Assembly (NCBI GenBank): GCA_913057195.1
Contig: CAJXNL010000010.1
Location: 1-64,000, forward strand
DNA: 64,000 bases
Direction of reading: 5' to 3'
Source of the DNA: an uncultured Wenzhouxiangella sp.
GTDB taxonomy: Bacteria > Pseudomonadota > Gammaproteobacteria > Xanthomonadales > Wenzhouxiangellaceae
Shown: piece after piece, positions 15,134 through 46,907 of the stretch
Layout: the number at the start of each line of letters is the position of its first letter
Position numbering within the stretch: position 1 is the stretch's first letter
Program-made: the position numbers and the translations under genes
The notes under the pieces: generated by a model
What the model was told of the DNA's origin: nothing
Databases searched by the model: none
What the model saw: the letters and a program-made list of their open reading frames with translations, nothing else

Positions 15134-17560
<2,427 letters not shown>

Positions 17561-22050: not shown

Positions 22051-23745
22051 ATGAACACGAGAACCTTTTTTGTCATTTTGCTGACCATGTTGGCGCTGTT
22101 GCTCTACATGGAGTGGCAAAAAGAGCAGTTTTCGCCGCCGCAGACCAACACTTCGGCATCGACTGGAGCGATCCAGTCGGATTCTTCTGGCAACGGGTCT
22201 GGACCCAGCCCTGATCGTTCAGCAGATGATTTGCCCGATCTTCCAAGCATCGTGGATCAAACCGCCAACGAGACACAAACACCTGCGCCACAGATGAGCG
22301 CCTCCCGGCGCATTGAGGTGTCCACTGACGTCTTAAGCGTGGACATTGACGCCAACGGGGGCACCTTGGTCGATTTGCGGCTGAAAGATTACCCAGTGTC
22401 GGTCGACCAACCCAACACGCCGTTCACGCTATTGATCGAGGCGCTGCCTGAGCTTTATGTGGCGCAAGCCGGCTTGATTGGCGCGGGTGTGCCCGCACCC
22501 AATCACACCACCATGTGGCAATTTGATGCGGATCGATACACGCTTGCCGATGGGCAAGACCAAATCGAGGTGCCGTTGTATTGGGCCGAAGACGGCATTG
22601 AGGTGGTGGCCACGTGGACCTTCTATCGCGGCGACTACCGCGTGGACCTTGATTTAGAGGTCATCAACAACAGCCTAGAGCAATGGACCGGCGCGCGGTA
22701 TGTGCAGCTTCAACGCACCGAACCTGATTTCTCTGATTCGGGCCCTGCCTTCACCAACCCAGAGCGGTTCAGCTACAACGGCGCGGCGGTGTTTGAACCT
22801 GGTCAAGGCTTTCAAAAGTTTGGCTATGGGGACATTCGTGACAGGCCGTATAACAACGACTTTGCCAACGGTTGGGCGGCCATGGTCGAGCATTATTTTC
22901 TGGCTGCTTGGATACCACCCACCGAGCAAGTGCACCAGTACAGCACCCGCTTTGTCGATCGAAATAGATTGCCCCGGTATGTCGTCTCTGCAACCTCCCC
23001 CCAGGTATCGGTCGAGCCCGGTGAACGACACCGCTTCAGCGCCAAGCTGTACGCTGGGCCTAAGCTCCAGAATCGTTTAAAAGAGATCGCACCAGGATTG
23101 GAACTGACGGTGGATTATCGCTGGTTCCGAGTGATTTCCCAGCCCTTATTTTGGGTGCTCGATAAACTGCACGATGTTTTAAACCATTGGGGCTGGTCTA
23201 TTGTGGCCTTGACCCTCTTAATCAAACTGATCTTTTTTAAGCTTACCGAAGCGCAGTTTAGGTCAATGGGCAAGATGCGAAAGCTTCAGCCTCGCATTCA
23301 GCAGCTCAAAGAACGCTTTGGCGATGACCGACAAAAATTCGGTCAAGCCATGATGGACATCTACAAAAAAGAAAAGGTCAACCCGCTGGGCGGCTGTTTG
23401 CCTGTTCTGGTCCAGATACCCATCTTTATTTCACTGTATTGGGTGCTTTTGGAGTCGGTCGAACTTCGCCAAACAGCCTTTTTATGGGTGCCCGATTTGA
23501 GCCGACCCGACCCCTACTTCATACTGCCTGTGCTCAACGGCATCTTTATGATCGCCACGCAACGACTCATGCCCACGGCGGGCATGGACCCACTTCAAGC
23601 CAAAATTATGATGTGGCTGCCTGTGGTCTTTGCCTTTATGTTTGCGCTCTTCCCAGCAGGCTTGGTGTTGTATTGGGCCACCAACGCAGGTGTGTCCTTG
23701 GCGCAACAGTGGGTGATTTTGAAGAGAATTGAGAAAGAAGGCTGA
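22051..23745 (+). CDS. yidC: Membrane protein insertase YidC
   Basis: Inserts and folds inner-membrane proteins, alone or with SecYEG. 564 residues. The N-terminal anchor (about 4-20) is followed by a Ser/Thr/Pro-rich linker, the large periplasmic beta-domain (about 85-345) and the conserved five-segment core with hydrophilic hairpin (KLQPRIQQLKERFGDDRQ) and NPLGGCLPVLVQIPIF. It starts three bases after rnpA and its 3' end overlaps the presumed mnmE start by 17 bases. Confidence 0.97.
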   Translation: MNTRTFFVILLTMLALLLYMEWQKEQFSPPQTNTSASTGAIQSDSSGNGSGPSPDRSADDLPDLPSIVDQTANETQTPAPQMSASRRIEVSTDVLSVDIDANGGTLVDLRLKDYPVSVDQPNTPFTLLIEALPELYVAQAGLIGAGVPAPNHTTMWQFDADRYTLADGQDQIEVPLYWAEDGIEVVATWTFYRGDYRVDLDLEVINNSLEQWTGARYVQLQRTEPDFSDSGPAFTNPERFSYNGAAVFEPGQGFQKFGYGDIRDRPYNNDFANGWAAMVEHYFLAAWIPPTEQVHQYSTRFVDRNRLPRYVVSATSPQVSVEPGERHRFSAKLYAGPKLQNRLKEIAPGLELTVDYRWFRVISQPLFWVLDKLHDVLNHWGWSIVALTLLIKLIFFKLTEAQFRSMGKMRKLQPRIQQLKERFGDDRQKFGQAMMDIYKKEKVNPLGGCLPVLVQIPIFISLYWVLLESVELRQTAFLWVPDLSRPDPYFILPVLNGIFMIATQRLMPTAGMDPLQAKIMMWLPVVFAFMFALFPAGLVLYWATNAGVSLAQQWVILKRIEKEG

Positions 23746-31205: not shown

Positions 31206-32147
31206 ATGGTGATCAGCCACGACCGAATCAAGCACTGGGCCATTTTGTACGCCACCGCATGGCTGCCAAAAAAGGTCCGAACACATACGCGGTATCGATT
31301 GTTTGAACGTCAGCGCCGAGGCATGCTCGAGCGAGGTCAGGTCGTCATGGTCCGTCACCCCAAAACGGGCTCGACATGGCTTAGAACCTTGCTCACCCAG
31401 CTTTATCATCACCGCGATGGCATCTCACCCAAGCGCGTGTTTGTCGCCGATGAGTTGGCGCTTCAAAAGAAAGGTCTCCCCCGCTGGATCATTTCCAATG
31501 GCTGGTACAGCCTGGAGCATTTGATTGCTGAGGCATACGCCACCAATGATCCTTTGGTTCATGGCAAAAAAACCTTGGTACTGACTCGCCACCCCGGCGA
31601 CATTGTGGTGTCTTGGCATCGTCAGTATCAAAAGAGAACCAAAGCCTTTAAACGAGAACTGATTGAAGCCGATGTGAACCCCGATGGTCGCATCGACTGG
31701 CAGGCCATGGACCGGTGGCAGTTTGTGCAAAATCCACAGCTGGGGCTGCCTGCAATTATTCGCTATTACAACTTTTGGGCGCGGACCGTGGCGGACCGAG
31801 ATGATGCATTGTTGGTTCGCTATGAGGATCTTCGCCGAGACACGGAGACCACACTTAGAGCCATCACCTCGCTGCTGGGCGAATCGTTCAGTGATGACGC
31901 TTATCAAAAAGCCATTGAGTTTGGCTCGGTTGACAATATGCGCCGATTGGAGAAAGCCGGCTACTTTCAAAACGAGTCATTGAGGCTTCGGGATGCCAAA
32001 GACGATGACGCTTTGAAGGTGAGAAAAGCTCAAGTGGGTGGATTTCGGGGCGATTTATCGCCCGAGCAGGCGGACTGGGTTCAGACCCAGATCGACGCGC
32101 AGCTGGATCCAAGCCTGGGCTATCACAGCGACCAATCTGGCGTATAA
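31206..32147 (+). CDS. PAPS-dependent sulfotransferase-family protein
   Basis: A 313-residue cytosolic sulfotransferase-fold enzyme that would move a sulfuryl group from PAPS to an unknown acceptor. The 5'-phosphosulfate loop is HPKTGSTWLR (residues 51-60) and the 3'-phosphate motif is RHPGDIVVSWHR near residue 126. The C-terminal GxxGxxK-like part is altered (QVGGFRGDLSPEQ). The neighbours give no clear substrate: a DUF805 gene upstream and an RND pump downstream with its own promoter-like -10. Confidence 0.85.
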   Translation: MVISHDRIKHWAILYATAWLPKKVRTHTRYRLFERQRRGMLERGQVVMVRHPKTGSTWLRTLLTQLYHHRDGISPKRVFVADELALQKKGLPRWIISNGWYSLEHLIAEAYATNDPLVHGKKTLVLTRHPGDIVVSWHRQYQKRTKAFKRELIEADVNPDGRIDWQAMDRWQFVQNPQLGLPAIIRYYNFWARTVADRDDALLVRYEDLRRDTETTLRAITSLLGESFSDDAYQKAIEFGSVDNMRRLEKAGYFQNESLRLRDAKDDDALKVRKAQVGGFRGDLSPEQADWVQTQIDAQLDPSLGYHSDQSGV

Positions 32148-36475: not shown

Positions 36476-36499
36476 TGCCTGATCTATGGCGTTACTGAA
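36468..36499. terminator. Near-perfect hairpin between convergent RND and NPP genes
   Basis: TTCAGTAATGCC (36468-36479) pairs with GGCGTTACTGAA (36488-36499) over 12 bases with one G-T pair and an 8-base loop. It spans both stop codons of the convergent genes. The symmetry would serve either strand as a transcript end or as a 3' stabiliser. There is no T-run. Confidence 0.5.
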
Positions 36500-37982
36500 T
36501 CACCACACAGTCGGCGTCGAACCGGTCATCAATTTCGACAGACGCCTCGTCCTGGTCAAATTCAAACGCTAAGCCAGTGGCTTCAAACTGATGATGGTTC
36601 TCCTCATCCGTTTCGATGCGATCAAGCACGTGCACCTCATTTTGCCAGTGAAGCGCCATGTGCGCAGGTGCAACGCGGGCTTCAACTGGGCTCCCGTCAC
36701 AATCGAATTGATGGCTGGTGTAGGTCACAGCCTGATCAGAATTGAGATAGGGCAAGAACGGATCCAATGAGCCATCATTGTCTGCGGGTGTGAGGCCCAA
36801 AACATGCGCCATCAGCTCGTACAAATCCACTGAACGAACGGCAGGGCTCTTGCTGCCAGATACAAATCCAGGCCCCATCATCGCAAACCCACCATGCATT
36901 TCAGACAGTGCGGGGTCCCAGCCGTGCATCCCATACAGCTGAAACTGTGATCGGCCGGCCATGTAGGGCTTGTTTGAGATCATCCAGCCCATGTCCGCTT
37001 CAGCCAACACATCTGGAACGCGGCGGTGAGTGTCGAACTGGTAGCGCTCGGGAATGTCCTCTTTGGCCCAGACTCTCAGATTGGGGTGTGCGTCCTCTAA
37101 CGATTCAACGATGTCGTCGACAGGCATCTCTGTGGCCCAGATCTGGGCGGCAGGGCCCCAATCCGACACCCGCACTTTCGAAAGGTCCAGGTAGTCATCA
37201 AGCATGATGTAGCGGTCAAAGTCCACCCGGCTCATGCCGTGATCCGAGGTCAGTAAGACGTAAAACTCATCCAAAACGCCGCGCGTTTCAAGCGCATCCA
37301 GCAAGCGGTTTAAGTGCCCATCAATCTCTTCAAGCGCCTCTTGCACCGGGGCCTCCCTGGGGCCCCAGCGGTGGCCGGCCGAATCAACCGTGCTGAAATA
37401 AAGCGTGATCAACTCAGGCCGTTCGCCAGCGGGCATGTCCACCCATTCCAGCACTTGATCAATGCGCTCTTCGTGGGGCACATCGCCATCGTACATTTTC
37501 CAGTACGTGGGCCGGACACCTTGGATCCGGGCCTCTGAGCCGGGCCAAAAATAGGTGGCCGTGGTCATGCCTTGTTTTTCTGCGGTGACCCAAATGGGCT
37601 CTCCCCCTTGGTACCAAAAGCCATCCCCCACAGCATCTCGGTTGCCCAGCGAAAAACGTGCATCGCGATCGGGATCCCACATGTTGTTGGCCACCACACC
37701 GTGGTGGCCGGGATATTTGCCGGTGACCACGCTGTAGTGGGTGGGGAAAGTTTTTGTCGGGAAGACATGGTGCAAACTGTCGACCGCGACACCGCCCTCC
37801 ACGAGCCGATCCAGCGCGGGGGTCTGGCCTAAGTCGAAATAATCGTAGCGAAAACCATCGATAGAAATCAGCAGCACTCTGGGCTGATCGGCCCTTGGAT
37901 TCTCGGACGGCTCGGGCTGGCAAGCCGCCGTGATTGATAAAGCAATGAGCATGAAGACAATGCGTTGGATCATGACAGGCAT
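36492..37982 (-). CDS. Nucleotide pyrophosphatase/phosphodiesterase (NPP)
   Basis: Exported alkaline-phosphatase-superfamily enzyme of about 496 residues that cleaves nucleotide pyrophosphate or phosphodiester bonds. A hydrophobic signal precedes Cys in SITAACQPE, a possible but weak lipobox. Zinc-site and catalytic blocks are ISIDGFRYDYFD, FPTKTFPTHYSVVTGKYPGHHG (catalytic Thr), DSAGHRWGP and LLTSDHGM. ATGs at 37982 and 37973 are both possible. The frame stays open far upstream to 38975, but that part is antisense to the chorismatase gene and not real coding. Confidence 0.9.
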   Translation of the reverse strand: MPVMIQRIVFMLIALSITAACQPEPSENPRADQPRVLLISIDGFRYDYFDLGQTPALDRLVEGGVAVDSLHHVFPTKTFPTHYSVVTGKYPGHHGVVANNMWDPDRDARFSLGNRDAVGDGFWYQGGEPIWVTAEKQGMTTATYFWPGSEARIQGVRPTYWKMYDGDVPHEERIDQVLEWVDMPAGERPELITLYFSTVDSAGHRWGPREAPVQEALEEIDGHLNRLLDALETRGVLDEFYVLLTSDHGMSRVDFDRYIMLDDYLDLSKVRVSDWGPAAQIWATEMPVDDIVESLEDAHPNLRVWAKEDIPERYQFDTHRRVPDVLAEADMGWMISNKPYMAGRSQFQLYGMHGWDPALSEMHGGFAMMGPGFVSGSKSPAVRSVDLYELMAHVLGLTPADNDGSLDPFLPYLNSDQAVTYTSHQFDCDGSPVEARVAPAHMALHWQNEVHVLDRIETDEENHHQFEATGLAFEFDQDEASVEIDDRFDADCVVIQ

Positions 37983-38087
37983 CCATAACGGTGTGAAAAC
38001 ATAAGCATAGTATGGCACCAAAATGACCGCTTCGATATGTTGAAAGGATGACGAATGCGTCAGTGCCAGTGGGTAAAATAGTGTGCC

Positions 38088-39005
38088 ATGGCGCACGCTC
38101 CCACACTTTCGGTTCAACCCGACCCCTGCCCTGCAACCCCAACGTTGGCGGTGTTTCATGCCGAAAGTTTGGGGCTCCAATACCTGGGCGGGGAGATGAG
38201 CCAGGAGCACTGGCAAGGCCCGGTGGAGCATTTTGAGGTGTTGACGATTGAACGACCGCTGCCGGTCAATCAAGACCCGGCTGAGGGCGTCGAGGCCGCG
38301 TACCTTGAGCTTTTTGCCACTGCAAAAGCCAAAGGCTGGCCCAACGTTGTGCGCATCTGGCAGTTTATTCCTGCCATCAACGCCGGCCAGGGCGATCAGG
38401 AGCGCTATCGCCGTTTTTGTGTGGGTCGCGCGAACGCGCTTGACGCGGTTGGATTGGCCAACCACCGAATGTGTGCCGCCACTGCCATTGGCACCGAAGG
38501 CCAAAGATTGACGCTGATCGCTCTTTTGGCCAACCACCCGGGCCGATCCATCGAAAACCCGCGCCAAATCAGCGCATGGCAGTACCCGCGCCAGTATGGT
38601 CCCATCAGCCCCGCGTTCGCGCGCGCCACGGCGGTGCCTGTCACCGGCCAAGATGAGGGCACGGGTTGGGCGGTGATGGTCTCTGGGACGGCGGCGGTGG
38701 TGGGCCATGCATCGGCCTATCCAAACGACGTCGTGGCCCAAACCGAAGAGGCGATGACCAATGTGGAGGCGGTGTTGGCTCAAGCCGAGCGCTGTACCGG
38801 CGAGCCAATGGCGGCGGTGGGCGCCCACACGCCTATTCGCGCCTATCTCCGTGACCCCAGTGATTGGCCCAAGGTGCTCGAGGTGATCCAGCAGCGTTGG
38901 CCACAAGCCCCTATCATGGGGCTTCAAGGCGATGTCTGTCGATCTGAGCTGTTGGTTGAGCTCGAGGCGTGGCACGCCAATCCATTGATATCAAGCCAGA
39001 GGTGA
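38088..39005 (+). CDS. Chorismatase, FkbO/Hyg5/XanB2 family
   Basis: A 305-residue enzyme of the family that splits chorismate to 3-hydroxybenzoate, 4-hydroxybenzoate or a dihydrodiol acid plus pyruvate. Family-like blocks are NVVRIWQFIPAINAGQGD, ERYRRFCVGRANA, GRSIENPRQISAWQYPRQYGP (about 150-171) and the C-terminal GDVCRSELLVELEAW with probable catalytic Glu. Which product is made cannot be told by eye. It precedes a creatininase-family gene by eight bases in a two-gene operon. A role in supplying 4-hydroxybenzoate to ubiquinone, as for XanB2 in Xanthomonas, is an inference. Confidence 0.85.
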   Translation: MAHAPTLSVQPDPCPATPTLAVFHAESLGLQYLGGEMSQEHWQGPVEHFEVLTIERPLPVNQDPAEGVEAAYLELFATAKAKGWPNVVRIWQFIPAINAGQGDQERYRRFCVGRANALDAVGLANHRMCAATAIGTEGQRLTLIALLANHPGRSIENPRQISAWQYPRQYGPISPAFARATAVPVTGQDEGTGWAVMVSGTAAVVGHASAYPNDVVAQTEEAMTNVEAVLAQAERCTGEPMAAVGAHTPIRAYLRDPSDWPKVLEVIQQRWPQAPIMGLQGDVCRSELLVELEAWHANPLISSQR

Positions 39006-39013
39006 GCACCAGC

Positions 39014-39748
39014 ATGAAACTACAGCAATCCACTTGGCCTGAAGTTGAGGCCTACCTTAAAGAATCTAAGGGCATTGTCATTCCCATCGGCTCCACTGAG
39101 CAACATGGGCCCACCGGGTTGATCGGCACCGATGCGATATGCCCAGAAACCATCGCACAAGGGCTCTCCGAGCAAGGCATCTTGATTGGGCCGACGCTGT
39201 CGATTGGCATGGCGCAACACCATTTGGGGTTTCCTGGGACCATTACGTTACGACCGAGCACGTTGATGTCGGTCATCAAAGACGTGATCATGTCACTCAA
39301 GGGACACGGGTTTCGACAGTTCTTATTTCTCAATGGCCACGGCGGCAACACCCAAACCACCCAAGCGGCATTCTCAGAGGTGTTTGCTGAACACAGCCTT
39401 GACCGAGAAGCCAGCAATCTTGCAATGCGCCTGCTCAACTGGTTCCAAGGGCCCAGGGTTCGAAGCTTGATCGATGAGCTGTACGCCTCAGCGGATGGCA
39501 ACCATGCCACCCCATCGGAAATCGCGCTGACGTGGTATGCATACCCTGATCAGATTCGTGACGTTCCATTGACCCCGGAGCAAGCGCCTTCAGGAGAAAT
39601 CAGAGATGCCAGCGATTACCGGCGTCGATTCCCCGATGGGCGCATCGGATCGAAGCCACAGTTGGCGAGTGTGGATCATGGGCGGCAATTTTATGAGGCG
39701 GGCTTGGCCGATGCGTTAGAGGTGTGGCGGTCGCTGACCGACAGCTGA
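39014..39748 (+). CDS. Creatininase-family amidohydrolase
   Basis: A 244-residue metal-dependent hydrolase. Likely ligands are Glu29 and His31 in GSTEQHGP, Asp40 in GTDAICPE, His109 in NGHGGN, and the acidic residue in NHATPSEIALTW. The family cleaves cyclic or linear amides (creatinine, formamidopyrimidines, mycofactocin precursor), so the substrate is open. The ATG at 39014 is chosen for the GAGGTGAG ribosome site that overlaps the chorismatase stop. Convergent with hisIE after 19 bases. Confidence 0.9.
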   Translation: MKLQQSTWPEVEAYLKESKGIVIPIGSTEQHGPTGLIGTDAICPETIAQGLSEQGILIGPTLSIGMAQHHLGFPGTITLRPSTLMSVIKDVIMSLKGHGFRQFLFLNGHGGNTQTTQAAFSEVFAEHSLDREASNLAMRLLNWFQGPRVRSLIDELYASADGNHATPSEIALTWYAYPDQIRDVPLTPEQAPSGEIRDASDYRRRFPDGRIGSKPQLASVDHGRQFYEAGLADALEVWRSLTDS

Positions 39749-39767: not shown

Positions 39768-40385
39768 TTAGCTGGCTTGGTATCGCCTGTCGAGCACAGA
39801 CAACACCGACTCAATGTCCGATCCTGCAGCTTTGAGTGTCACCAGCAAGTGGTACAACAAATCTGCCGCTTCTTCGTTGAGCTGATCTGTGTCGCTTGAC
39901 ACCGCGGCTAAAGCGACCTCGACGCCCTCTTCTCCCACTTTTTGGGCACAGCGCTCGATGCCCGCGGTTAACAGCGACTGAGTATATCCGCCGCCGCCGT
40001 CGACCTCGGCGCGCTGGTCAATGCGGGCGGCCAAGCGCTGAAGCACAGACCCAAGTTGTGCATGGGCGCCAAAACACGACCGGGTCAGTAAATGGCACGT
40101 CGGCCCGTGTGGGTGGGCGAGCACCAGCAGGGCATCGCGATCACAGTCCAACGCCAAATCCACCAGCGACAAGACATGCCCAGAGGACTCGCCCTTGGTC
40201 CATAGACGCGCTTTGGATCGAGAATAGAACGTCACCTTCTCGCGGGTTAGGGTGGTCTCTAGGGCCTCGGCGTTCATAAACCCAAGCATCAACACTTCAC
40301 CGGTGAGGGCGTGTTGAACAATCGCGGGCACAAGGCCATCGTGTTTTGTCCAGTCAATGTCAGCGATCCAAGAGGGTGATTCCAT
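39768..40385 (-). CDS. hisI: Bifunctional PR-AMP cyclohydrolase/PR-ATP pyrophosphatase
   Basis: Steps two and three of histidine synthesis in one 205-residue chain. The HisI part (about 1-115) has FYSRSKARLWTKGESSGH and metal-binding DCDRDALLVL and GPTCH. The HisE part (about 118-205) has KVGEEGVEVALAA and EAADLLYHLLVTL. It is the last gene of the operon, 15 bases after hisF. Confidence 0.97.
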   Translation of the reverse strand: MESPSWIADIDWTKHDGLVPAIVQHALTGEVLMLGFMNAEALETTLTREKVTFYSRSKARLWTKGESSGHVLSLVDLALDCDRDALLVLAHPHGPTCHLLTRSCFGAHAQLGSVLQRLAARIDQRAEVDGGGGYTQSLLTAGIERCAQKVGEEGVEVALAAVSSDTDQLNEEAADLLYHLLVTLKAAGSDIESVLSVLDRRYQAS

Positions 40386-40400: not shown

Positions 40401-41177
40401 TTAAAAGCCGGTGGGGCGAACATGCACAGCTGCTTTAGCCAGATGCTGTTTGAGCGAAGGTATTGGCAGTGTATTGGCATGGAATATCGTGGCAGCCAGT
40501 GCACCATCCACGTCCGCCTGTTGAAACACATCAATAAAGTGTTGTGCTTGACCCGCCCCACCGGACGCAATCAGCGGGACACGACACGCCGCCCGCACGG
40601 CTTTAAGCTGCTGGATGTCATAACCTGAGCGCACCCCGTCGGCATCCATACAATTCAAAACGATCTCACCTGCCCCCCGCGACTGCGCCTCGCTGACCCA
40701 GTCGAGTGTCAATCGGTTGGGGTTGGTCATGGCCTCTGGGTGGCCGGTGTTTTGTCTCACCCACCACTGTCCGTTGTCTTCGATCGAATCGACGCCAACG
40801 ACCACACACTGTGAGCCCAAGGCATCCACCATCTCATCAATCAACGTCGGGTTGGCCAACGCGGGTGAGTTGATCGACACCTTATCGGCCCCTGCGCGGA
40901 GGACTGCGCGTGCATCGGCCACCGATCGTATGCCGCCGGCCACGCAGAACGGAATGTCAATGGCGTCGGCGACGCGTTCAATCCATTTCAAATCCACGCT
41001 TCGCTTTTCAGGGCTGGCGGTAATGTCGTAAAAGACCAGTTCATCGGCACTGTGGTCTCGGTAACGCGAAGCCAGATCCACGATGTCCCCCATGACCCGA
41101 TGGTCTTTGAAACGAACGCCTTTGACGACTTGGCCGTCTTTAACGTCTAAGCAGGGAATAATGCGCACCGCGACCAT
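40401..41177 (-). CDS. hisF: Imidazole glycerol phosphate synthase subunit HisF
   Basis: Cyclase subunit that joins ammonia from HisH with PRFAR to give imidazole glycerol phosphate and AICAR. TIM barrel of 258 residues with catalytic Asp in [16 protein letters not shown] and phosphate-binding GADKVSINS and [13 protein letters not shown]. It begins directly at the base after the hisA stop. The genes around it are tightly packed in the same direction. Confidence 0.98.
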
Positions 41178-41948
41178 TTAGTTCATTGCCCCATCATCGT
41201 TGCCGAAACGTCCGATGGCGGCCAGTGGCACGTGGCCTTCCAAGAGCGCGCGCCCGACGATGCACGCATCAACCCCCGCAGCGCTCACAGCATCCAGGTC
41301 ATCGCTGGCACCGATGCCCCCTGAGGCTTGAATCGCAAGCGTGGGGTAGCGTGTCACCAAGTGCTCATAAAGTTCCACCGATGGGCCTTGTAACAAACCA
41401 TCCCGGTCGATGTCGGTGCACAGCACGTGCTTGAGTCCGCTGGGAATCAACAAATCGAGCAGCTTTTGCAAATCAAGCGCACCCGGCTCGGACCAGCCCG
41501 AGGCGTGTGGCACCCATCGAGAGGGCTGATTCTGGTGAGCCGCCATTGCTTGTTTGACATCAAGCCCTGCCACCAGCGTGTCGGTCCCAAACTGGGCCAA
41601 CCACTCGGCAAACGTCAGCGGCGACTGGATGCACACGCTCCCCACCACCACGCGCGCGGCACCTGCGTTCAGTCGTGCCTCAATGTCTGCCGCCGAGCGC
41701 ACCCCGCCACCGGTTTGAACAGGCACAGTGAGCGTCTCACACATGGACCGAATCAAGGCCAAATTGGCCGCGCCACCGCCTTTGGCGCTGTCGAGGTCGA
41801 CCACATGCAAACAACGCGCGCCGGCGCGCTCATAAGCCAACGCACGCTCGATGGCATCATCACCATAGTCCGTTCGCCGGGTGAAGTCGCCTTGGGCCAG
41901 GCGAACCACCCCGCCGTCGATGAGGTCCAGTGCGGGGATGATCATCAT
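41178..41948 (-). CDS. hisA: ProFAR isomerase HisA
   Basis: Isomerises ProFAR to PRFAR in histidine synthesis. TIM barrel of 256 residues with IIPALDLIDGGVVRL (catalytic Asp), VQTGGGVRSAADIEA and the second Asp in CTDIDRDGLLQGP. It overlaps the hisH stop by four bases. Confidence 0.98.
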   Translation of the reverse strand: MMIIPALDLIDGGVVRLAQGDFTRRTDYGDDAIERALAYERAGARCLHVVDLDSAKGGGAANLALIRSMCETLTVPVQTGGGVRSAADIEARLNAGAARVVVGSVCIQSPLTFAEWLAQFGTDTLVAGLDVKQAMAAHQNQPSRWVPHASGWSEPGALDLQKLLDLLIPSGLKHVLCTDIDRDGLLQGPSVELYEHLVTRYPTLAIQASGGIGASDDLDAVSAAGVDACIVGRALLEGHVPLAAIGRFGNDDGAMN

Positions 41949-42544
41949 GTGCGCAAAAACCCCTCAATCAATGAAGCGCCGGCAGTGGCCGACTTCTCTG
42001 GATGGAATTGGCAGGCCACAAAATTATTGTGACGAACCACAGCCGCAAACGATTGACCGTGTTGGCAGCGCGCCACCAAGCTCGGATGATCACCCACCGC
42101 CGCGAAGCTGTGGACGAAATAAAACCACTCATCACCGCTAAGCGCCTGGGCGATCGGCTCTTGCGTTGTCCATTGGAGCTGGTTCCACCCCATGTGGGGC
42201 AAACGCAAGCCGGGTGAGGCGCGCAACGCCTTGATCGAACCGGGGATAATCCCTAAGCAGGGGGTGGGTGTGAGGCCTTCCTCCGACGCGTCAAACAGCA
42301 GCTGCAAGCCCAAACACACCCCCAAAACCGGTTGCGTCAAACCTTGGATGACAGACACCAAACCGGCCTGTTTGAGGGTGCTCATGGCAGCTTGTGCAGT
42401 TCCCACGCCGGGCAAGACCACATGGCTGGCGGTTTTGATGACGCCGGGCGCTTGAGTCAGGACCGTCTCAGCGCCGGCACGCTTGAGTGCCTGGCGCACC
42501 GAGCCGACATTGGCCCCGCCGGAGTCGATCACCGCCACCGCCAT
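41945..42544 (-). CDS. hisH: Imidazole glycerol phosphate synthase subunit HisH
   Basis: Glutaminase subunit that feeds ammonia to HisF. Class I amidotransferase fold, 199 residues, with nucleophile Cys in GVCLGLQLLFD, catalytic His and Glu in FVACQFHPEKS, and the start VAVIDSGGANVGSV. It starts two bases after hisB ends. Confidence 0.97.
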   Translation of the reverse strand: MAVAVIDSGGANVGSVRQALKRAGAETVLTQAPGVIKTASHVVLPGVGTAQAAMSTLKQAGLVSVIQGLTQPVLGVCLGLQLLFDASEEGLTPTPCLGIIPGSIKALRASPGLRLPHMGWNQLQWTTQEPIAQALSGDEWFYFVHSFAAVGDHPSLVARCQHGQSFAAVVRHNNFVACQFHPEKSATAGASLIEGFLRT

Positions 42545-42546
42545 CC

Positions 42547-43614
42547 TTACAAGACCCCTTTGGTCGACGGCACGGCGCCTTTGTCATCGCGAACAAGCGC
42601 GGGTTTTAACGCGCGGCCCAACGCTTTGAAGCAAGCCTCAATTTGGTGGTGGGTGTTCTCGCCGCTGACTTCGATATGAATGGCTGCGCGCAAGGTTTGT
42701 GACAGTGACTGAAAAAAATGAACCACCATCTCGGTGGGCAGCTGGCCCACTTGCGAACGACCAAACTCGCCTTTAAATACGCACGCGGGTCGCCCTGACA
42801 AATCAATCGCCGCGTTGGCCAATGACTCATCCATGGCCACGGTGAAGCCATAGCGACCGATCCCGTGGCGATCACCCAACGCCTGATCCAGCGCTTGCCC
42901 CAAAGCCAAGGCGGTGTCTTCGACGGTGTGGTGCTCGTCGATGTGGGTGTCGCCTTGCGCGGTGAGCTCGAGCGCAAACTGGCCGTGGGCGGCCAACTGG
43001 TCGAGCATGTGGTTAAAAAATCCAAGCCCGGTCTGTACTTGCGGCGGGGTGCAAGCATCTAAGTTAACGAACACATCGATGTGTGTTTCGTTGGTGGCCC
43101 TTTTCACCCGCGCGGTTCTCGGCGTGTTGATCAAAGCTTGGGCAATCTCCATCCACCCTTGCTGCTCATCCAATAAAAATCCACGAAGCCCCATGTTGTT
43201 CGCGAATGCCAAGTCGGTGTCTCGATCACCAATGACCGCGGATTGTTGACGATCGAGGGTGGGGTCTTGCAAGTAATCCAAGACCATGCCGACACCGGGC
43301 TTGCGATTCGGGGAAGCCGCTTCTGGCAACGACGGGTCGATATGGATGGCATCAAATTCGATGCCTTGAGATTGGAGAATCTGCAGCAACAACGCTTGAG
43401 GCCCCTCGAAATCAGTTTGGGGAAACGTTTCTGTGCCCAGGCCATCTTGGTTGGACACCATCACAAACCGAAAGCCGGCGCGCTTGAGCTCAAGCAAGGC
43501 GGGAATCACGTGATTGACCAATCGCAATTTATCCAAGCGGTCAATCTGCTCATCAGCAGGCTCTTCGATCAGCGTGCCGTCACGGTCAATGAACAAAACT
43601 TTTTTAAGCCCCAT
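42547..43614 (-). CDS. hisB: Bifunctional histidinol-phosphatase/IGP dehydratase
   Basis: Fusion of a HAD phosphatase (about 1-165, FIDRDGTLIEEP) and imidazoleglycerol-phosphate dehydratase (about 168-355, NETHIDVFVNLD, HMLDQLAAHGQF, DEHHTVEDTA). Choosing the ATG at 43614 (MGLKKVLFIDRDG) gives 355 residues, the same as E. coli HisB. A ribosome site (AAAGGGA) lies within the hisC end, and an upstream ATG at 43653 is less likely. It overlaps hisC by 11 bases. Confidence 0.97.
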   Translation of the reverse strand: MGLKKVLFIDRDGTLIEEPADEQIDRLDKLRLVNHVIPALLELKRAGFRFVMVSNQDGLGTETFPQTDFEGPQALLLQILQSQGIEFDAIHIDPSLPEAASPNRKPGVGMVLDYLQDPTLDRQQSAVIGDRDTDLAFANNMGLRGFLLDEQQGWMEIAQALINTPRTARVKRATNETHIDVFVNLDACTPPQVQTGLGFFNHMLDQLAAHGQFALELTAQGDTHIDEHHTVEDTALALGQALDQALGDRHGIGRYGFTVAMDESLANAAIDLSGRPACVFKGEFGRSQVGQLPTEMVVHFFQSLSQTLRAAIHIEVSGENTHHQIEACFKALGRALKPALVRDDKGAVPSTKGVL

Positions 43615-44716
43615 GGGTTGTCCCTTTTTGACGGTGGGTTGGGGAGTAGGCATCGAGACAATCCAAAAGCGCTTGCGTCTCTGATTCGGTGCCGACGGTG
43701 ATGCGGATGCATTGATCGAGTTGCGGCTGGTGGGACTGATTTCTTAATTCGATGCCATTGGCTGCACAATGCGCCATGAAGTCAGCGGCATCCTCCACCT
43801 TGACCAAGACAAAATTTGCCTGACCTGGCCACAGGGATTGGATGTGGGGTGAGTCTTTCAAAGCCTCACACAGCAGCGCTTTGTTGGCTCGCAGGCGGTC
43901 AAGCTGCGTGTTTTGCTGGGCCAACGCATCAGGCGTGAGCGATTTCAGCGCGGCGTCAACGCATGGAGAGGGCAAGGGGTAAGGGGCGATGATTCGTTTG
44001 AGCCAGCCAATCAGGTCGGGGTGGGCAATCACCCCGCCCACCCTCGCGCCGGCCAAACCGAACCCCTTGGATAAGGTTTTGAGCACCACCAGATTGGGTT
44101 GATGTGCCAGGGCTGAGACCAAGCTGGGCTGGTCACTGAATTCACCGTAGGCCTCATCCACCACCACCACGCCTGAATTCTCGACGCGCTTGGCGAAGGC
44201 CAACACCTCGATGGGCGGGAGGGTATGCCCAGTGGGGTTGTTGGGCGAACACAAAAAGTAAGCTCGGCAAGGCTTGGCCGCTTCGACCGCTGGCCAATCG
44301 ACCGCCCAGGCATGCTCGCCTTGGGTCAGCCCGACTTCGACGACTTCAGCACCCTGAATTTGCGCATACAGGGCATACATCCCAAAACAAGGCGGCAATG
44401 TCATCACCCGATCCACGCCGGGCCGAATCAACAGCCGCATCAACAGATCAATGCCCTCGTCTGAGCCGCGGGTGATTAAGACGTGCTCAGGGGTCGTTGA
44501 CCAGTGTGCGCTCAGCGCCTCAACCAGGGCTTGCGGCTGAGGGTCTGGGTAACGGTTGAGCGGTTGGTCCTCGTCACTGGCCCACGGGTTTTCATTCGCA
44601 TTCAGCCTGATTGGCGGGGCAAAATCCCCGCTGATCGCGCGCGCAGACGCGTAAGGTTTGAGCGTCCTAAGCTCGGGCCTGACCCAGGCCTCAAACGGAG
44701 CCGACGGCTCGGTCAT
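43604..44716 (-). CDS. hisC: Histidinol-phosphate aminotransferase
   Basis: PLP enzyme of 370 residues that converts imidazole-acetol phosphate to histidinol phosphate. RLNANENPWA is at the N-terminus, SPNNPTGHTLP in the middle, and the PLP lysine is in TLSKGFGLAGARVG. It starts inside the hisD end with a four-base overlap. Confidence 0.97.
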   Translation of the reverse strand: MTEPSAPFEAWVRPELRTLKPYASARAISGDFAPPIRLNANENPWASDEDQPLNRYPDPQPQALVEALSAHWSTTPEHVLITRGSDEGIDLLMRLLIRPGVDRVMTLPPCFGMYALYAQIQGAEVVEVGLTQGEHAWAVDWPAVEAAKPCRAYFLCSPNNPTGHTLPPIEVLAFAKRVENSGVVVVDEAYGEFSDQPSLVSALAHQPNLVVLKTLSKGFGLAGARVGGVIAHPDLIGWLKRIIAPYPLPSPCVDAALKSLTPDALAQQNTQLDRLRANKALLCEALKDSPHIQSLWPGQANFVLVKVEDAADFMAHCAANGIELRNQSHQPQLDQCIRITVGTESETQALLDCLDAYSPTHRQKGTTHGA

Positions 44717-46023
44717 GGCTCACCACCGGTGTCGCGAAGCCGAAGCTCAATTGCCAGTTGGTGGGCCCCCAGGCCCTCATGTCGGGCCAATCGGGCCGCC
44801 TTGGGGCCAAGCTGCTGGAGGCCTTCTGGGGTCGCGCTTTGAACGGTCATGCGGCGCATGAAATCGGTGGCAGACAGCCCGGCATAGACTTTTGCCCAGC
44901 CACCGGTGGGCAGGACGTGATTGGTGCCTGAGATGTAATCGCCCAAGGCTTCGGGGGTGTGGTGGCCGACAAACACCGACCCGGCGGTGGTGATGTCGGG
45001 GACCCAGTCCAGCGCTCGGTCGCTGGCGAGTATGAGGTGCTCTGGCGCATAGCGATTGGCCACCGCCACGCCGTGTTCAATGTTGGGCACCACCAGGGCG
45101 CGGGCGTGAGCGAGCGAGGCGGCGGCGATATCGGCTCGATTTAATCGCGGCAGCAAGGCATCGATTTGAGTGGCGGTGGCTTGGGCCAATGCATGAGAAT
45201 CCGTGACCAGCACCGCCTGCGAGTCCGGTCCATGTTCGGCTTGCGATAACAAGTCTGCTGCCACAAACGTTGGATTGGCGGTGCTGTCGGCCAGCACCAT
45301 CACCTCGGATGGGCCGGCAGGCATGTCCATGGCCGCGCCATCGATGTCCAAAGCCACTTGGCGCTTGGCCTCGGTGACGAAACGGTTGCCGGGGCCAAAA
45401 ATTTTGACCACGGCGGGCACGGTTTCCGTGCCATAGGCCATCGCGGCGATGGCTTGGGCGCCGCCGGCGATTAGCACGTGGTCAATGCCCAGTCGTTCAG
45501 CAATGGCCAACACGGCCGGATCCGCTTGCCCATCGGGACCCGGCGGGGTGGCGAGGACAACCTGTCGACAGCCCGCCAATCGCGCGGGCACGCCGAGCAT
45601 GATGGCGGTCGAGGGCAGCGGGGCGCTGCCGGCAGGCACATACAGCCCCACCGCATCCAAGGGCCGCCATTGGGCCTGGCAGGTCACACCGGGCGCAGTG
45701 TCGGCGCTGTACGGCTGTGGGACGCCTTGGGCATGAAAGTGCTCAATTGTTCCGATCGCGCTGTCAATGGCATCGATCAGGTCGTTATCGAGCTTGTTTT
45801 TGGCATCACTGATGGCCGCTTTGCTGGCCCACAGGGCGGGCGCAGGATGGGCATCAAAGCGTTGGCCCAGGTCGGTGAGCGCTTGATCGCCCCCGACACG
45901 GACCGCGTGGATGATTTCACCGACCGTCTCGGCCAAGTCGGCACTGCTTTCCAGCTCAGGGCGGGCCAGCAGAGTGGTCAGGGCTTCGTCGGTGGCGTCA
46001 ACGGCGTAGATGGATAAACTCAT
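44713..46023 (-). CDS. hisD: Histidinol dehydrogenase
   Basis: NAD-dependent zinc enzyme for the last two steps of histidine synthesis, about 436 residues. I chose the ATG at 46023 (MSLSIYAVD), which overlaps the hisG stop by four bases. The open frame upstream is inside hisG. Family blocks are VGLYVPAGSAPLPSTAIML, GAQAIAAMAYGTETVP, DMPAGPSEVMV and LSQAEHGPDSQAVLV. Confidence 0.97.
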   Translation of the reverse strand: MSLSIYAVDATDEALTTLLARPELESSADLAETVGEIIHAVRVGGDQALTDLGQRFDAHPAPALWASKAAISDAKNKLDNDLIDAIDSAIGTIEHFHAQGVPQPYSADTAPGVTCQAQWRPLDAVGLYVPAGSAPLPSTAIMLGVPARLAGCRQVVLATPPGPDGQADPAVLAIAERLGIDHVLIAGGAQAIAAMAYGTETVPAVVKIFGPGNRFVTEAKRQVALDIDGAAMDMPAGPSEVMVLADSTANPTFVAADLLSQAEHGPDSQAVLVTDSHALAQATATQIDALLPRLNRADIAAASLAHARALVVPNIEHGVAVANRYAPEHLILASDRALDWVPDITTAGSVFVGHHTPEALGDYISGTNHVLPTGGWAKVYAGLSATDFMRRMTVQSATPEGLQQLGPKAARLARHEGLGAHQLAIELRLRDTGGEP

Positions 46024-46907
46024 GCCAACATTTTCTCCACCGGCAGCACTAAAATCGCCGAGGCGCCCGCGGCTTTGAGCCTCTCGAGGTGCTCCCAAAA
46101 CACCTGTTCGGTGCACACCGCATGCAGCGCGACTCGATCAGGGCTGCCCTCTAAGGTTAAGACGGTGGGGGCTTCGGCCCCCGGCAACAGCGCCGTGATC
46201 TCGGTGAGTTTGTTTTTGGGGGCATGCATCATCACGTATTTGGTTTCATTGGCCTGGCGGACCCCTTCAATGCGGGTCATGAGGGTGTCGATGAGCGCTT
46301 CGGCCTCAGGGCTTAAGGCATTGGGACAGCGGTAGAGTCCCGCCTCGCTGACCAAGACCTCGTCGACCACCGCCAAGTGGTTGGCACGAAGCGTGGTCCC
46401 TGTCGAGACCAGATCCACAATGGCTTCGGCGGCGCCCATCGATGGGGCGATTTCAACCGCGCCGTTGAGGACCACAATGTCGGCCGACACGCCACGTTCA
46501 TTGAGGTAGCGGCGGGTGAGTTGAGGATAACTGGTGGCCAAACGCTGTCCTGTCAGGTCTTGCGCGCCTTGAATGGCGCTTTGTTCTGGCGCTGCGAGCA
46601 TTAACCGGCAGCGCCCGAAACCCAAGCCGACCAAGGGGGCAAAGCCGGTGCGCGCATCCAGCCCCTGTTCGAGGGCTTTTTCTTCGGCGACATTGCCCCC
46701 CACGATGCCCAACTGACACACGCCAGCGAGCAACAGCCGGGGAATGTCGTCATCACGGACCAGCATTAAGTCGATGGGCAGTGTCTCGCCAAACCAAAAG
46801 AGCTTGTCTTTGCTTTTGGCGAATTTCAAACCCGAGCGCTCCAGCAGCGCCAATGACTCTTCGGCCAGGCGTCCAGACTTTTGAATGGCCAGTTTCAGTC
46901 GAGTCAT
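46020..46907 (-). CDS. hisG: ATP phosphoribosyltransferase, long form
   Basis: First and feedback-regulated step of histidine synthesis. The 295 residues include the C-terminal ACT-like domain (about 225-295), so this is the long form that does not need HisZ. It opens LKLAIQKSGRLAEESLALLERSG and has DIVVLNGAVEIAPSMGAAEAIVDLVSTGTTLRANHL, the PRPP-binding region. It overlaps the TrpR-like gene stop by four bases. Confidence 0.97.
   Translation of the reverse strand: MTRLKLAIQKSGRLAEESLALLERSGLKFAKSKDKLFWFGETLPIDLMLVRDDDIPRLLLAGVCQLGIVGGNVAEEKALEQGLDARTGFAPLVGLGFGRCRLMLAAPEQSAIQGAQDLTGQRLATSYPQLTRRYLNERGVSADIVVLNGAVEIAPSMGAAEAIVDLVSTGTTLRANHLAVVDEVLVSEAGLYRCPNALSPEAEALIDTLMTRIEGVRQANETKYVMMHAPKNKLTEITALLPGAEAPTVLTLEGSPDRVALHAVCTEQVFWEHLERLKAAGASAILVLPVEKMLA

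Follow-up and report, generated by a model that had tools for sequence, protein, structure and literature searches.

Described chorismatases include FkbO (CH-I), Hyg5 (CH-II), which makes 3-hydroxybenzoate, and the bifunctional XanB2 of Xanthomonas (CH-III), which yields 3- as well as 4-hydroxybenzoate. A further type, CH-IV, forms 4-hydroxybenzoate only. CH-IV is named as a fourth chorismatase subfamily in the excerpted text of PMC7170507, where the CH-II residues of Nat-hyg5 are given as G164, G231 and C318. XanB2 is the published replacement for UbiC in Xanthomonas, where it supplies 4-hydroxybenzoate for ubiquinone (PMC5069965 and PMC3949708, in excerpt). A XanB2 homologue in Azoarcus sits inside a pigment cluster, according to the excerpted text of PMC3949708. 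The Creatininase family (Pfam accession PF02633) includes creatininase, MftE, IolN and ArfB. The riboflavin formamidase BrbF (SMc02977) is also described as a creatininase-family enzyme (PMC9478397, in excerpt).

We analysed a window of 64,000 nucleotides from an uncultured Wenzhouxiangella sp. (contig CAJXNL010000010.1), in which a chorismatase gene and a creatininase-family gene lie side by side. The features of this locus are:

36492..38096, minus strand: divergent type I phosphodiesterase, one flank of the locus (domain evidence); its true start probably lies inside this frame
38088..39005, plus strand: chorismatase of the stand-alone lineage that we name CHOR-U, 305 aa, ATG to TGA (open reading frame, domain, structure and residue evidence)
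38998..39005, plus strand: Shine-Dalgarno-like AGAGG (38998-39002) followed by the TGA stop of the chorismatase (sequence)
39014..39748, plus strand: creatininase-fold metal hydrolase, 244 aa, start ATG at 39014 (open reading frame and domain evidence)
39768..40385, minus strand: HisIE, the proximal gene of the convergent his operon and the other flank of the locus (PRA-CH and PRA-PH domains)
40401..46907, minus strand: HisF, HisA, HisH, HisB (HAD fusion), HisC, HisD and HisG, the remaining his operon (domain evidence; HisH and HisC by domain plus position)

The spacer between the two genes is 8 bases long, GCACCAGC, and the AGAGG at the chorismatase stop is the probable start-site signal of the hydrolase gene. 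An earlier note, made from the window alone, had read the locus as a chorismatase followed by a metal hydrolase on one strand, with this same gap; the coordinates and Pfam matches agree. It had also placed the ribosome site of the second gene on the stop of the first, where the AGAGG indeed abuts the TGA codon. Beyond the divergent phosphodiesterase, a domain search identified an RND exporter, and a sulfotransferase-domain protein (31206-32147) lies near this exporter. The window also contains GyrB (15134-17524) and YidC (22051-23745), an indication that the replication origin is close by.

The window chorismatase matches the FkbO_Hyg5-like_N domain (Pfam accession PF21168) with 88.1 bits against a cut-off of 27. 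Its match to NCBIfam TIGR04444, which models the FkbO/Hyg5 subfamily only, falls below the cut-off (186 of 325 bits). The nearest solved structures by sequence are 5ag3 (E 1.6e-42), which we take to be Hyg5 and which carries the PDB title 'putative pteridine-dependent dioxygenase', and FkbO 4bps (E 4.7e-32). A DNA-pattern scan of named genomes identified 18 chorismatase relatives, 12 from Lysobacterales families, two from Marinicella and four placed only at class or phylum level. An AlphaFold model, for which the window protein was aligned with 14 of these 18, has a mean pLDDT of 81, and its top seven Foldseek matches are chorismatase chains (5ag3, 5a3k and 4bps).

In the alignment, window residues C284 and E291 correspond to Hyg5 C327 and E334, the latter presumably the catalytic glutamate, and G200 corresponds to Hyg5 G240. 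The catalytic cysteine and glutamate, which the earlier note had left to an alignment, are thus present. FkbO is like Hyg5 in fold and has alanine at both the Gly240 and Cys327 sites; this CH-I signature is absent from the window enzyme, which has Gly200 and Cys284. FkbO-type dihydrodiol formation is unlikely, since C284 and E291 are as in Hyg5 and Gly200 stands where FkbO has alanine. The CH-II set of Gly/Gly/Cys is found only in part: the window has Ala133, Gly200 and Cys284, and the first of the three differs from Gly173 of Hyg5 and FkbO, a position that we equate with Nat-hyg5 G164 by a constant offset of 9. The subtype assignment from active-site residues that the earlier note had proposed speaks against the FkbO type and gives two of the three CH-II residues. 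Because the product of a chorismatase is not predictable from sequence alone, as stated in the excerpted text of PMC3949708, we give no closer subtype than non-FkbO.

The window enzyme has its family in common with XanB2, and the likeness is one of family, XanB2 itself having been left out of the alignment. Unlike the Azoarcus homologue of XanB2, it lies outside a pigment cluster, and it belongs to a separate lineage. The xanthomonadin-type cluster typical of CH-III is absent, as the window's genome has neither a ketosynthase (Pfam accession PF13723) match nor a cluster-ligase orthologue at E ≤ 1e-30. Among the 66 chorismatase rows classified here, 27 sit in a pigment cluster.

We identified no match to UbiC (Pfam accession PF04345) in any of 30 genus genomes, with a positive E. 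coli control; the earlier note had proposed looking for just this absence. UbiA (TIGR01474) scores above cut-off in 27 of the 30, the window's genome included. The match falls below cut-off in G153, G162 and G164, with a shorter match in G164 and distant prenyltransferases only in G153 and G162. Chorismatase was matched in 28 of the 30 genus genomes; at family level 41 of 43 genomes have a match, and at order level 118 of the 151 that were sampled. Since a ubiC match is lacking and ubiA is present, chorismatase is likely the source of 4-hydroxybenzoate for ubiquinone. By analogy with XanB2 in Xanthomonas, this is most likely the role of the window enzyme. The first option of the earlier note, a ubiquinone-precursor enzyme with an unrelated neighbour, fits the lack of ubiC, the presence of ubiA, the catalytic residues and the separability of the two genes.

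The window's genome is 1.78 Mb in size and 98.9% complete, and it has kept both genes of the pair. It is the smallest of the 15 genus genomes that are at least 90% complete (the next is 2.1 Mb, the rest 2.7-4.2 Mb). Together with its two nearest relatives, G164 (84% complete) and G165, it (G000) forms a streamlined sub-lineage with genomes of 1.7-2.1 Mb. EAL, DUF418 and AsmA genes were not seen at the locus in this sub-lineage, and chorismatase and hydrolase remain. Another genus genome, G089, is 99% complete and has ubiA, with no match to chorismatase, ubiC, HisF or the hydrolase orthologue. We dropped the idea that G089 makes ubiquinone without any 4-hydroxybenzoate source, as HisF is missing too; the whole region is thus absent there, either unassembled or removed by a large deletion.

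We identified two cluster markers, the PF13723 ketosynthase and a ligase orthologue (E ≤ 1e-30), in the same 13 of the 30 genus genomes. Among the cluster members that were scanned are an ACP, two ketosynthases, a glycosyltransferase, an acyltransferase, LolA, an AMP ligase and a halogenase-like flavoprotein, together with a FabA/ApeI-like dehydratase that scores below cut-offs. Xanthomonadin-type clusters as published have such parts (PMC3949708, in excerpt), and the cluster is predicted to produce an aryl polyene of the xanthomonadin type. Gene order in the cluster genomes is his, EAL, (hydrolase), cluster with chorismatase, (DUF418), AsmA, phosphodiesterase. Cluster-less genomes have the same flanks around chorismatase alone, with some flank genes missing in the window's sub-group, and the type I phosphodiesterase flank is common to the window and its cluster-bearing relatives. 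In G099, the chorismatase keeps AsmA and phosphodiesterase as neighbours, not his. The sister-genus chorismatase lies by the his operon in G065 and G051, the two genomes in which the fetched stretch shows it, by an EAL gene in G072, G166 and G167, and by neither in G104. That the aryl-polyene cluster occupies this locus in sister species lay beyond the reach of the earlier reading from the window alone.

The chorismatase at this site is of an either-or kind. A cluster-linked lineage, which we name CHOR-X, is present in all 13 cluster genomes, and CHOR-U is present in the 15 other chorismatase-bearing genus genomes and in 6 of 6 sister-genus genomes. Each of the 28 chorismatase-bearing genus genomes has one of the two.

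A close hydrolase orthologue occurs in 28 of the 30 genus genomes, the same 28 that have chorismatase. The two genes lie within ~1 kb of each other in 14 of the 15 chorismatase-bearing genus genomes without the cluster and in none of the 13 with it, a comparison outside which G089 and G162 fall for want of a chorismatase match. Completeness is below 90% in nine of the 15 cluster-less genomes, so the absence of a cluster elsewhere in the genome is less sure there; with genomes at least 90% complete only, the pair is adjacent in 5 of 6 without the cluster and 0 of 8 with it. The cluster-less pairs are immediate in 13 genomes (gap -4 to 164 nt), separated by 1,023 nt in G165 and apart in G099. 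Besides the window's genome, 12 genus genomes have the pair in the same strand and order, with a 4-nt overlap or a gap of 0-164 nt, the hydrolase being truncated by a contig end in two of the 12; the pairing is thus no accident. The pair is never adjacent in cluster genomes, with a gap of 5.5-7.7 kb in the five that have both genes on one fetched stretch. The hydrolase lies beside secA and a phosphopantetheinyl transferase in cluster genomes G084, G009, G029, G161 and G163, and in G099. The gene maps are incomplete, lacking among others the chorismatase of L019, L021 and L022, and these pair counts rest instead on chorismatase and hydrolase matches. Conservation of the pair in relatives, which the earlier note had made a test of its reading, holds within part of one genus and fails beyond that part.

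A tree of RpoB and RpoC from 39 genomes places the genus in one clade with two main parts (I and II) and the sister genus outside. RpoB had no match in G155, G157, G144 and G162, and G109 (two pieces) was left out of this species tree. The chorismatase tree unites cluster-less and sister-genus rows in one clade (support 100/98, 99/97 and 83/98 in three builds) and cluster-linked rows in another (98/94). Chorismatases sort by cluster presence, not by species. The support of 83/98 for the CHOR-U clade in one build counts against our best explanation. On the chorismatase tree, AU tests reject species clade I (dlnL 115, p 1.1e-5) and species clade II (dlnL 104, p 4.5e-73), and a genus held together is rejected as well (p 0.027). 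For these tests, the clade of G155, G157 and G144 was taken from the hydrolase tree plus gene order, and the cluster chorismatase of G149, which nests with clade I, was counted there.

Neighbouring genes behave differently. Clade I is contained in the hydrolase (89/90), AsmA and phosphodiesterase trees and is not rejected by HisB (p 0.445). A clade of the cluster genomes is rejected by AsmA (p 0.013), phosphodiesterase (1e-113) and HisB (8e-5), in quick builds of 17, 16 and 17 rows, respectively. Clade II does not come together in the hydrolase tree, where rows from the sister genus and from another family join the window's sub-group (94/88). In the phosphodiesterase tree, cluster genome G144 groups with cluster-less genomes. 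The hydrolase and phosphodiesterase controls are imperfect species trees, and none of the controls shows a division by cluster of the chorismatase type.

Our best explanation, to which we assign a probability of roughly 75%, is that the locus pairs a ubiquinone chorismatase with an unrelated hydrolase neighbour and alternates with an aryl-polyene cluster and its CHOR-X. The chorismatase would form 4-hydroxybenzoate from chorismate, perhaps along with some 3-hydroxybenzoate, and would replace UbiC as the one source of the ubiquinone ring that is recognised in the cell. The hydrolase would be unrelated to it and probably shares its transcript owing to their closeness. In sister species, the spot between the his operon and the DUF418/AsmA/phosphodiesterase block holds the aryl-polyene cluster with CHOR-X; the window's lineage, which would have lost the cluster, has only the stand-alone CHOR-U. 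The apparently odd pairing would thus be explained by the locus: the two genes stand side by side because the window's lineage lacks the cluster that fills this spot in its sister species.

A true two-gene pathway, in which the hydrolase would take as substrate an amide or lactam formed from the product of the chorismatase, or would trim a side product of ubiquinone synthesis, would account for the tight same-strand spacing (-4 to 164 nt) of the pair in 13 of the 15 cluster-less genomes and for a hydrolase start signal that abuts the chorismatase stop. Three sub-groups of the genus have retained this spacing, which could mean selection for the pair and so counts against our best explanation. 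However, at none of the six sister-genus CHOR-U loci does the fetched stretch contain the hydrolase, and one of these genomes (G072) has no hydrolase match at all. CHOR-U and the hydrolase are apart in G099, all 13 cluster genomes have the hydrolase and lack CHOR-U, six genomes have the hydrolase beside secA and the phosphopantetheinyl transferase, and the chorismatase and hydrolase trees differ. Because the genes are separable and their trees differ, we set the pathway aside as the main explanation and regard it as improbable. The small pathway offered as the second option of the earlier note finds no support here, as each gene occurs apart and adjacency is limited to genomes without the pigment-type cluster. 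Among the matches listed, titles and abstract openings of the open-licence literature contain no creatininase-chorismatase link; a gut-metabolite review holds both creatinine amidohydrolase and chorismate without joining them in its title or the start of its abstract. It is also improbable that the window enzyme makes 3-hydroxybenzoate for another secondary product. The enzyme keeps the Hyg5 residues C327 and G240, but cluster-less genomes have no cluster-ligase orthologue at E ≤ 1e-30, there is no UbiC as an alternative source of 4-hydroxybenzoate (UbiC being the one source looked for), and the gene is kept in a small genome.

The alternation itself could have arisen in several ways. A simple deletion scar with one vertically inherited chorismatase is contradicted by the conflict between the chorismatase and species trees. 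A single vertical chorismatase left at each cluster loss could instead have converged in sequence, so that the cluster-less forms only look related; this would fit a locus that is in place in both states and seven alignment columns that separate the groups with no residue in common. Such convergence is unlikely, given that both halves of the protein yield the split independently (cluster-less clades at 90/97 and 94/95, each half rejecting clade I), that the split remains at 99/95 after removal of the seven columns, and that the dlnL values of 115 and 104 are large for convergence. An exchange between species of the cluster with CHOR-X, or of CHOR-U alone, by recombination in the shared flanks as at capsule loci is a tentative alternative for the origin only. 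G149, which belongs to a different genus of this family, carries one cluster-linked chorismatase in the CHOR-X clade and a different second one elsewhere, and the CHOR-X of G037 groups with clade I (100/99) though its RpoB/RpoC is of clade II. These two placements suggest transfer, and in G149 (L063, L064) transfer of the cluster between genera is likely. Against exchange, tests of species splits within CHOR-U give no rejection (p 0.227 and 0.272), three clade I rows form a group within CHOR-X (81/89), and at least three switches are needed within the genus (25 rows), or four with five neighbours added. The within-lineage trees of CHOR-U and CHOR-X have 19 and 10 rows, and G156, G161, G163, G166 and G167 were added in a later build. 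Because the species splits tested within each lineage are not rejected, we favour an ancient two-copy locus with reciprocal loss over exchange between species. A two-copy ancestor predicts some genomes with both CHOR-U and CHOR-X, and we identified none among 41 chorismatase-bearing family genomes.

The seven columns without a common residue separate the CHOR-U and CHOR-X sets in alignments of 19 versus 12 rows and of 21 versus 13 rows, the latter with one gapped row at two of the seven. Within each set, Hyg5 positions 168, 171, 205 and 217 are invariant. Position 173, a glycine in Hyg5 and FkbO, is alanine in every row of both sets (21 of 21 and 13 of 13), window included. Over the order, Ser217 (Hyg5 numbering) is found in 25 of 27 cluster-linked enzymes and 0 of 39 unlinked ones, a count that leaves out L001, L002 and L004 as ambiguous, takes linkage from gene maps and may include unlinked rows with a cluster elsewhere in the genome. 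We rejected residue 217 as a proven determinant of product, as there are only three independent contrasts (five on all branches), with which a sign test cannot reach 0.05, and as Hyg5 makes 3-hydroxybenzoate yet has arginine there. A speculative extension, which we hold at less than even confidence, is that CHOR-U is dedicated to 4-hydroxybenzoate for ubiquinone and alternates, one per chorismatase-bearing genus genome, with a pigment cluster whose chorismatase also serves ubiquinone, residue 217 and columns 168, 171 and 205 marking the product split. Neither the alternation nor the pair is described in titles and abstract openings of the open-licence literature, among the matches listed. With its two alternating chorismatase lineages, the locus constitutes a natural experiment on the choice between 3- and 4-hydroxybenzoate. 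Sister species that do and do not require 3-hydroxybenzoate supply matched sets of enzymes, on which the determinants of product can be tested directly.

The window hydrolase matches the Creatininase domain (PF02633) with 205.7 bits against a cut-off of 31.3, and its nearest solved structure by sequence is 3no4, a 'creatinine amidohydrolase' (E 8e-83). All 35 relatives compared have E29, H31, D40, H109, H164 and E169 unchanged. Although its family is also that of creatininase, MftE, IolN and ArfB, the hydrolase scores below each curated cut-off: 95.2 of 235 bits for the creatininase model TIGR04448 and, for the NCBIfam equivalogs, 66.8 of 172 for MftE, 64.4 of 245 for IolN and 13.9 of 180 for ArfB. 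Its NGHGGN motif has Gly111 at the site of creatininase Glu122 in 35 of 35 relatives; this Glu122, which follows His120, we take to be a metal ligand. Judged from these sequence features, the hydrolase is most likely a metal amidohydrolase. A formamidase role like that of BrbF may be one option for it. A second, distant creatininase-family match (29% identity) lies on the same contig outside the window (G000:C10:70627-70932).

We also identified another stand-alone chorismatase context, in which the chorismatase is followed by proteins of ~650, 312, 248 and 532 aa (L066, L068 and L071, and in part L065 and L067).
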